Origin: Enterobacteriaceae endosymbiont of Donacia crassipes
Lineage (GTDB): Bacteria > Pseudomonadota > Gammaproteobacteria > Enterobacterales > Enterobacteriaceae
Direction of reading: 5' to 3'
Length of the DNA: 47,932 nucleotides
Assembly (NCBI RefSeq): GCF_012569785.1
Contig: NZ_CP046202.1
Span: forward strand, 208,569 to 256,500
The notes under the pieces were generated by a model. The model saw only the letters and a program-made list of their open reading frames with translations. It had not been told where the DNA came from and searched no databases. Below are positions 19,899 to 22,451 of the stretch, piece after piece; position 1 is the stretch's first letter, and each line of letters starts with the position of its first letter. Made by a program: the position numbers and the translations under genes.

Positions 19899-20678
19899 TT
19901 AAGATTTAGATATTATTAATTTTCTAATAATGGAATTAGTAACTAATATATTTGAAGAATTTTTATAATTATAATTACCAATAAAATCAGTTATTAATCC
20001 TCCAGCTTCTTGAATTATTAACTCTCCGGCAAGTAAATAATAAAAATTTTTTACATTGTTATTTATATAACAATCAATTCTATTTGCAGCTAAATATGCT
20101 AAATCTAAAGATATACAACCACTAATTCTTAATGAAATTAAATTATTTTTAAATAAATAATTTAAATTAATATTTTGTTTATTAGAAAAAAAATAGCTAT
20201 TATTTAAAGCAAATAATAAATTTTTTTGCTTTATATAATTATTACAACGTAATTTATAGCCATTTAATTGAGCATTTCGACCTCTTATAGCTGTAAATAA
20301 ATCATTTTTAAAAGGATCATATATTAAAGAAATTATTGTTTTTTCTTTTATACAAATAGCAATAGATATTGAAAAATGAGGTAATTTTTTAAAATAATTC
20401 ATAATCCCATCTAAAGGATTTATAATCCATACAGTTTTTTTATAATTAAAAATTAAAAAATTTTTTTTACATACAATAACAATATTTTGTGCATATATAT
20501 TATAAAATGTTCTAGTAATCATATTATTTAAATTTTTATGAATTTTTTTTATAAAAACATTATTATCATAATAATTATTATTATAATGTATATTAATATT
20601 ATGAATTTCATAATTTTTAACAATTATATTACCAATATTACGAATTATACGTATAGCAATATTAAGCATTGGTTGCAT
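19899..20678 (-). CDS. suhB: SuhB-like protein with lost inositol-phosphatase active site
   Basis: This is a 259-residue member of the inositol monophosphatase family, clearly SuhB by its N terminus (MQPMLNIAIR), LPHFSISIAICIKEKT, YDPFKNDLFTA, RGRNAQLNGY and SLDLAYLAANRID. The metal site is destroyed. The Glu pair expected in ITEES reads VCKK (about 69-72), DPLDGT reads NPLDGI (87-92), the earlier VTNVD segment has lost its Asp, and the PWDFAAG Asp is replaced in NFYYLLAG. It therefore cannot be a normal two-metal phosphatase. In E. coli, SuhB also works as a Nus factor in rRNA antitermination complexes, a role that does not need catalysis, which would explain why it is kept. The reading frame is intact, so it is not an obvious pseudogene. 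Confidence 0.9.
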   Translation of the reverse strand: MQPMLNIAIRIIRNIGNIIVKNYEIHNINIHYNNNYYDNNVFIKKIHKNLNNMITRTFYNIYAQNIVIVCKKNFLIFNYKKTVWIINPLDGIMNYFKKLPHFSISIAICIKEKTIISLIYDPFKNDLFTAIRGRNAQLNGYKLRCNNYIKQKNLLFALNNSYFFSNKQNINLNYLFKNNLISLRISGCISLDLAYLAANRIDCYINNNVKNFYYLLAGELIIQEAGGLITDFIGNYNYKNSSNILVTNSIIRKLIISKS

Positions 20679-21536: not shown

Positions 21537-22451
21537 ATGCCAGTTATAGTACATAAAGAATTACCAGCAATTAATATTTTAAAACAAGAAAATATATTTT
21601 TATTAAAAAAAACAAAAAAAAAATATCCTAGTCAACTTAAAATTCTTTTTTTAAATTTAATGTTTAAAAAAATTGATACAGAAAATCAAATAATTAGATT
21701 ATTATCTAATTCTTCATTACTAATAGATTTATCATTGTTAGCAGTAAGTGATAATAAATCATCAAATTATTTATCTATTCATCACATTAATAAATATTAT
21801 TCTCATTTAGATCAAATTAATAATAAATATTATGATGGTTTAATTATTACAGGAGCACCTTTAGGATTAATTAATTTTACTGATATTAGATATTGGAAAG
21901 AATTTGTAAAAATTATACATTGGGCTCATGAACATGTAAATTCTATTTTATCTATATGTTGGTCTGTACAAGCAATATTAAATATTTTATATAAAATTCC
22001 TAAAAAAATTAATCAATCAAAATTATTAGGTATATTTAAACATAAAATTTTATTAAAAAATAATTGTTTAATTCAAGGATTCGATGATTATTTTTTTGTC
22101 CCTCATTCTAGATATTCTAATTTTTCATTAGATATTATTAAAAATTATACTGATTTAAACATAATTGCTACTTCTAAAAAAGCAGGTGTATATCTTTTTA
22201 CTAGTCAAAAAAATAAATATATATTTATTACTGGTCATCCAGAATACGACGCTTTAACAATAAATGAAGAATATTTAAATGATTTAAAAAATAAATTTAA
22301 ATTAATTAATATACCATATAATTATTATCCTTTAAATAATCCAAAATTAAAACCTAAAATTAATTGGAGAAGTCATGGTAATTTATTATTTTTAAATTGG
22401 TTAAATTATTTATTTTATCAAAAAAAATTTATTTATATAAATAAATTTTAA
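21537..22451 (+). CDS. metA: homoserine O-succinyltransferase
   Basis: This enzyme transfers succinyl from succinyl-CoA to homoserine, the first committed step of methionine synthesis. It has 304 residues (E. coli 309). The N terminus MPVIVHKELPA matches MPIRVPDELPA. The catalytic Cys is in SICWSVQAILNILY, the His and Glu of the active site in FITGHPEYDA, and the C-terminal WRSHGNLLFLNWLNY is intact. ITGAPLGL is also kept. AAGGA lies 8 bases before the ATG. It sits between nfuA and proS, outside its ancestral neighbourhood. No other methionine gene is in the window, so whether a full pathway exists cannot be judged. The succinyl-CoA it needs can come from SucAB-Lpd. Confidence 0.97.
   Translation: MPVIVHKELPAINILKQENIFLLKKTKKKYPSQLKILFLNLMFKKIDTENQIIRLLSNSSLLIDLSLLAVSDNKSSNYLSIHHINKYYSHLDQINNKYYDGLIITGAPLGLINFTDIRYWKEFVKIIHWAHEHVNSILSICWSVQAILNILYKIPKKINQSKLLGIFKHKILLKNNCLIQGFDDYFFVPHSRYSNFSLDIIKNYTDLNIIATSKKAGVYLFTSQKNKYIFITGHPEYDALTINEEYLNDLKNKFKLINIPYNYYPLNNPKLKPKINWRSHGNLLFLNWLNYLFYQKKFIYINKF

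Follow-up and report, generated by a model that had tools for sequence, protein, structure and literature searches.

The suhB gene of the enterobacterial endosymbiont of the reed beetle Donacia crassipes encodes a protein of normal length that retains the SuhB fold and lacks four of the five acidic metal ligands of the enzyme, and loss at this site is general among the reduced Enterobacteriaceae genomes that we sampled. We infer both that the protein is inactive as an enzyme and which non-enzymatic role was kept; that SuhB, its enzyme dead, is retained solely as a structural Nus factor is the reading we consider likely. On balance we also favor, with greater reserve, a wider proposition: that insect-endosymbiont Enterobacteriaceae have repeatedly (in at least eight lineages, in some early in genome reduction) turned SuhB into a pure, metal-free structural Nus factor, with CysQ intact wherever it is kept, and that the rRNA complex of the D. 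crassipes symbiont would be a minimal one, without the grip of NusA AR2 and held together by the contacts that a dead enzyme makes with RNA, NusE and NusG.

The gene lies in the window (the whole stretch of DNA analysed, 47,932 nucleotides) of a genome of 464,968 bases in all, whose chromosome has 458,439 bases; Table 1 of PMC7289800 gives the same chromosome length and a plasmid of 6,529 bases. The frame opens with ATG, and its product is matched by the Pfam profile PF00459 (116.6 bits, E 1.9e-33, passing the gathering cut-off) and by E. coli SuhB (2qfl), which aligns over residues 1-256 (E 5.3e-50). No other PF00459 gene was found in this genome, and no CysQ. Although the score against the NCBIfam SuhB equivalog NF008027 (PRK10757) is 190.6 bits, below the curated cut-off of 332, this family is nevertheless the top-scoring one among six compared. 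The predicted structure is a confident SuhB fold, and E. coli SuhB is the nearest solved relative by both sequence and structure. Downstream lie bolA, clpP and a gene that we take to be clpX; nfuA and metA are in opposite orientation. The metA gene (21537-22451, plus strand; homoserine O-succinyltransferase, PF04204, 340 bits) looks intact, an observation that stands against the statement, in the excerpted part of PMC7289800, that methionine biosynthesis is lost in Donacia symbionts except that of D. tomentosa.

The ligand roles of D44, E67, D84, D87 and D212 (E. coli numbering) are presumably also those established with human inositol monophosphatase; the features of the gene that bear on them are as follows.

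19899..20678, minus strand: suhB, 259 aa, catalytically dead as judged by its sequence (ATG-start open frame, PF00459, E. coli SuhB match, purifying selection, structure model)
20538..20540, minus strand: His47, codon CAT, replacing ligand D44
20469..20471, minus strand: Cys70, codon TGT, replacing ligand E67
20418..20420, minus strand: Asn87, codon AAT, replacing ligand D84; Asn in 24/24 reed-beetle symbionts
20409..20411, minus strand: Asp90, codon GAT, the sole ligand kept (D87); Asp in 24/24 reed-beetle symbionts
20040..20042, minus strand: Tyr213, codon TAT, replacing ligand D212; alignment ambiguous by one residue

In E. coli SuhB these five residues are the acidic ligands of the catalytic metals (PMC5516325, PMC2080633), and relative to that protein the symbiont SuhB carries D44H, E67C, D84N and D212Y, with one ligand of five kept. 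The initial annotation had described four lost metal or catalytic positions in an open frame of normal length with its fold signatures retained, and each of these elements is borne out. The D212 column is ambiguous by one place, owing to a one-residue insertion nearby, and no aspartate stands there in the D. crassipes protein. T89 is replaced by isoleucine as well, and the column of E205, an inositol contact, holds a residue other than glutamate in all 24 reed-beetle symbionts. At least three ligands are lost in every one of the 24: D44, E67 and D84 throughout and D212 in 20, the remaining four being Plateumaris symbionts with an aspartate at or beside the D212 column, which was scored as kept. 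Since the D44, E67 and D84 losses are common to all 24 genomes, sequencing error is unlikely. On the residues that remain, symbiont SuhB would be catalytically inactive.

The frame is open in all 24 reed-beetle symbionts (in D. bicoloricornis the beginning of the gene is masked), and omega across them is 0.102 (lnL -6699.8, versus -7117.1 at omega 1), so that the dN/dS comparison proposed in the initial annotation, far from giving a value near 1, places the gene under purifying selection. Comparison genes gave 0.048 (clpP, 18 sequences), 0.116 (nfuA) and 0.218 (bolA). Within the D. crassipes clade (five genomes) omega is 0.090, and selection on SuhB there is not relaxed. Pairwise estimates depend on the method, ranging from 0.16 to 0.55 with NG86 (eight pairs) and from 0.06 to 0.22 with YN00 (seven pairs). 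Values of 1.000 returned by IQ-TREE for Plateumaris only (suhB, nfuA and two suhB refits) were rejected as failed optimisation, the likelihood being higher at a fixed omega of 0.1 than at 1. Selection is spread unevenly over the protein: 67 of its 259 sites are invariant over the 24 genomes and the median site changes twice, while the E67 column changes 10 times (above practically every other site), the D44 column five times (82% of sites change less), the D212 column four times, and the N84 and D87 columns not at all. On these counts, ligand positions 44 and 67 are free to vary and the N-P-L/I-D-G loop is held, probably for its shape.

The generality of the loss was assessed by searching 392 genomes of the family, of which 80 of up to 2.4 Mb were hand-chosen for a closer look; 78 of the 80 gave a match, and about 25 other small genomes lie outside this sample. 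One of the 78 matches, that of G146, is CysQ-like (L112) and is excluded from every SuhB count; L036 is a second copy of the window gene's record, and L015 and L110 lack a protein start. The small-genome set comprises 88 SuhB proteins from 37 GTDB genera, all in genomes of 1 Mb or less, reed-beetle symbionts included; because GTDB seems to divide Buchnera among several genera, these are not 37 independent origins. None of the 88 keeps all five ligands, and every one has lost at least two: 18 keep none, 50 keep one, 15 keep two and five keep three. The ligand loss reported for this DNA is a sound observation, and what falls away is its peculiarity to one tiny genome. Among genomes of 1.1-2.4 Mb all five ligands are found in 1/14, and in large-genome controls in 47/47, the controls being E. 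coli and 46 genomes, 40 of them taken from the top of the match listing and hence biased to well-preserved proteins. A further 17 lower-scoring or mid-sized genomes were mixed. Seven are intact (G081, G101, G293, G372, G382, G098 and G031), whereas SuhB lacking metal ligands was found in G116, G237, G220 and G193 (2.1-3.3 Mb; L258-L261), which are perhaps young symbionts, and in G086, G126 and G164; the G075 protein is a fragment, and the only matches in G405 and G141 are CysQ-like. Many symbiont genes annotated as inositol monophosphatase are thus probably not enzymes.

Weighted by genus, retention in small genomes is 6% for D44, 12% for E67, 16% for D84, 22% for D212 and 56% for D87, against a median of 51% over the 170 positions invariant in the controls (small-genome genera, equal weights). 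From the bottom of these 170 positions the five ligands rank 6, 13, 22, 44 and 91 (one-sided p 0.01). The ligands are less retained than a typical invariant position, which is the opposite of the pattern of an enzyme.

The losses are also recurrent. A SuhB tree of 159 tips, from which the ligand columns were excluded, contains eight maximal clades in which no tip is intact, and hence at least eight inactivated clades, one of which holds 86 tips and may conceal several origins or be pulled together by AT bias. Retention patterns, on the assumption that lost ligands are never regained, likewise include eight that are mutually incompatible. GTDB genus g72 has intact ligands in a genome of 3.6 Mb and A-E-Y-D-D, D-K-N-D-D and N-K-D-N-N in three of 0.7-0.9 Mb; of two Serratia symbiotica entries one reads D-E-D-D-D and the other D-K-D-N-Y; and four entries of Candidatus Pantoea edessiphila read K-E-D-D-N, K-A-E-D-D, K-K-E-D-N and K-E-E-D-N. 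Loss can therefore begin early in genome reduction and then continue. An excess of separate loss events at the ligands was sought and rejected: 18-24 events, compared with a median of 17.5, place the ligands between the 50th and 74th percentile among invariant positions. Compared with 18 other Asp and Glu positions that are invariant, the ligands give a p of only 0.047.

CysQ offers a control of the same Pfam family and fold in similarly AT-rich genomes. An earlier set of 18 had been drawn from SuhB-profile matches, with a possible bias to intact copies, and the search was redone with the CysQ profile, which found CysQ in 22 of the 69 genomes searched (two just under the family cut-off, with a 105-bit gap to the next match; copies decayed beyond the reach of this profile would escape). 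In contrast to SuhB, all 22 retain the five ligands (D-E-D-D-D), and 21 of these 22 genomes also contain a SuhB with an incomplete ligand set.

The D. crassipes symbiont genome encodes NusA, NusB, NusG and Rho. Among 73 small genomes examined, NusB is present at cut-off in all 57 with SuhB, whereas of the 16 without SuhB 11 have no NusB, a broken one or one that scores below cut-off, and six have it at cut-off, one of them (G146) in split frames. By genus, NusB is lost in 0/36 with SuhB and in 5/7 without (p 2e-5), or in 4/7 (p 3e-4) if g126, whose NusB is just under cut-off, is scored as present; g84 is grouped as SuhB-less since four of its five genomes lack SuhB, and the genomes are non-independent, so that the p values are a guide. 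The four SuhB-less genomes of g84 (G106, G231, G375 and G429; genomes about 440 kb) do contain NusB, against a simple SuhB-NusB rule, and none of the five g84 genomes, the SuhB-bearing G308 (L107) included, has a NusA long enough for AR2. Rho is found in 73/73 small genomes, NusA in 71/73 and NusG in 17/17 examined. Two side observations concern these genes: all four g126 genomes of about 300 kb (G148, G257, G329 and G389) have an in-frame TGA in nusA, and TGA also occurs in frame in rho, suggesting that this codon specifies an amino acid there; and in G099 and G228 (g77) nusG is matched in short frames as two pieces that overlap, which may reflect a frameshift.

In the rRNA leaders boxA was assigned by its motif. 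From 30 rRNA loci, 26 readable leaders were obtained, and 23 of them carry the core GTTCTTT with a boxC-like stretch behind it, at a genomic GC content of about 20%. The core reads GTTTTTT in one operon each of the D. proxima, D. piscatrix and D. cincticornis symbionts (L230, L235 and L236), close kin of genomes without AR2, where decay of the rRNA complex may have begun. In the D. crassipes symbiont one leader (L248) has, by motif, the boxA-like AGTTCTTTAAAAA, and the other (L224) is masked by N. Of the elements that the initial annotation wished to see, NusA, NusB, NusG and a boxA-like site are in place, the last of them in one of two leaders.

NusA itself has changed. In E. coli, SuhB residues K251 and L254 bind NusA AR2, and when both are changed AR2 affinity falls over a thousandfold and the anti-Rho effect becomes weaker (PMC6614801); their counterparts in the symbiont protein are listed here with roles taken from that source.

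19920..19922, minus strand: Lys253, codon AAA, at K251, NusA AR2 contact
19911..19913, minus strand: Ile256, codon ATA, at L254, NusA AR2 contact

The D. crassipes symbiont NusA has 427 aa, ends before AR2 and matches no AR2 chain, whereas that of D. tomentosa matches AR2 of 6ib8 (6ib8_C). A stop-containing AR2 remnant lies behind the NusA stop (L194, nusA 313376-314392 and downstream). AR2 is found in 19 of 23 readable reed-beetle NusA proteins and lost in four (D. crassipes, D. cincticornis, D. proxima and D. provostii), D. piscatrix being masked; among other small genomes with SuhB, NusA is too short for AR2 in 8/53. At the NusA-contact surface that the initial annotation had in mind, K251 is kept and L254 has become isoleucine, and AR2 itself, being lost, cannot hold SuhB. 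Across genera (8 genomes without and 45 with AR2, assigned by NusA length, reed beetles omitted), AR2 loss was not significantly associated with loss of K251 and L254 (Fisher p 0.09 and 0.19) or with conservation of the SuhB C-terminus (p 0.18). An AGN motif near the C-terminus is changed in the AR2-less clade and also in AR2-keeping Haemoniini, and no inference is drawn from it. Because selection in the D. crassipes clade is not relaxed, its SuhB must serve a purpose in the absence of AR2. In E. coli, as described in PMC6614801, recruitment of SuhB needs boxA, NusB and an RNA signal and is independent of AR2, a dependence that fits the co-occurrence of SuhB with NusB.

According to published work, the E. 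coli SuhB dimer is a structural hub contacting NusA, NusE and NusG, with boxA as the key element (PMC10250234); its cellular role is independent of phosphatase activity, and inactive mutants complement (PMC6614801, PMC4807359 and work cited there). These contacts belong to the complex that assembles on RNA polymerase at the boxA of rRNA leaders, NusE being ribosomal protein S10. An E. coli K-12 strain deleted for suhB is cold-sensitive, and in M. tuberculosis SuhB dimer formation is promoted by Mg (PMC2080633). Its main role has been argued to be rRNA maturation and not the prevention of termination (PMC4807359). Deletion of boxA in E. coli lowered 30S activity about threefold and, in one test strain described there, left the doubling time unchanged (PMC10250234); by analogy, the antitermination part alone may bring a modest benefit. 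In the mechanism we propose, symbiont SuhB would act only as a structural Nus factor: with the phosphatase no longer selected, the Mg site would decay, here by four of its five acidic ligands, and selection would continue to act on the fold and on other surfaces in support of 30S assembly and of the transcription and maturation of rRNA. With AR2 gone, SuhB of the D. crassipes lineage would be held by RNA, NusE, NusG or other NusA regions. We favor this reading because of the ligand loss, the purifying selection, the recurrence, the CysQ contrast, the Nus factors and Rho, and the boxA-like leaders; the absent AR2, the weakened boxA core in three relatives, g84 with NusB and without SuhB, the lack of a significant AR2-K251/L254 link and the ordinary loss-event counts weigh against it. 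The suggestion that the transcription role alone is under selection thus gains from the dead site, omega, the Nus partners and boxA and is weakened by the loss of AR2, the role itself being a proposed one.

It is unlikely, in our judgement, that SuhB is instead retained for another non-enzymatic role (association with RNA polymerase or the ribosome, or the stability of another complex) outside the boxA-dependent rRNA complex. Such a role would sit well with the persistence of an omega of 0.09 despite the loss of AR2 and the weakening of the boxA core in one operon of relatives, and with the failure of K251/L254 loss to track AR2 loss significantly, but not with the co-occurrence of SuhB and NusB, with boxA-like and boxC-like leaders kept at about 20% GC, or with a recruitment that in E. 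coli goes through boxA, NusB and an RNA signal rather than AR2 (PMC6614801). We give little credence to the idea that symbiont SuhB remains enzymatically active, through a rebuilt site or a single metal or on a different substrate: the E67 and D44 columns change too often for a new fixed ligand, T89 and E205 are altered too, lineages differ in the ligands they have lost and CysQ retains all of its own, whereas the invariance of D87 and of asparagine at 84 in all 24 reed-beetle symbionts, in a loop that is held, speaks for it. Decay of suhB toward loss, as in g84, appears very improbable. SuhB is absent from 16 of the small genomes examined, and the NusA AR2 of the D. crassipes symbiont did decay recently; suhB, however, is an open frame in 24/24 genomes with an omega of 0.10 rather than 1, with 67/259 sites unchanged and with a confidently predicted SuhB fold.

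In the structural Nus factor that we prefer, conserved residues are candidate contacts, some of them surely structural. Among control-invariant positions, small-genome genera show about 100% retention of Y59, W81, N91, Y117, F125, N136, L190, Y194 and E222 and 98-99% of R139 and R141 (D. crassipes SuhB has lysine at 139), while most other arginines drift, and N122 is likewise retained in dead SuhBs; in a distant alignment N91, F125, R139, R141, R183, Y194 and E222 are mostly unshared with CysQ. The undrifting positions (N91, N136, R139, R141, Y194, E222 and others) form a ready list of what the transcription job or the fold needs.

The closest known system is E. coli SuhB (2qfl, 6ib7, 6ib8, 6tqn), inositol-1-monophosphatase and Nus factor, whose fold the symbiont protein matches end to end, in a genome that likewise has the Nus partners; it differs in four of five ligands, in T89 and E205, in its score (190.6 versus 332 bits) and in the absence of NusA AR2. 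Phosphatase-less E. coli mutants similarly fulfil the cellular role without catalysis (PMC6614801, PMC4807359), but those mutants are laboratory-made, whereas the symbiont loss is natural, multiple and recurrent. In excerpts of earlier work on symbionts, a Buchnera metabolic model omitted suhB as unconnected to biomass (PMC2649895), and suhB appears in a gene table by aphid subfamily (PMC11188193); PMC12508126, which has RNA-seq data behind it, leaves suhB unnamed in its main text. In the literature searched, with subscription papers mostly outside its scope, we found no mention of symbiont SuhB losing its metal site. The separability of the two roles was already known from E. coli; the symbiont loss is expected in its direction and surprising in its regularity. 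A laboratory result, that SuhB functions without its phosphatase, becomes a natural experiment repeated many times, probably misnamed inositol monophosphatases matter for symbiont metabolic models, and the pattern would show which half of a two-job protein survives extreme genome reduction.
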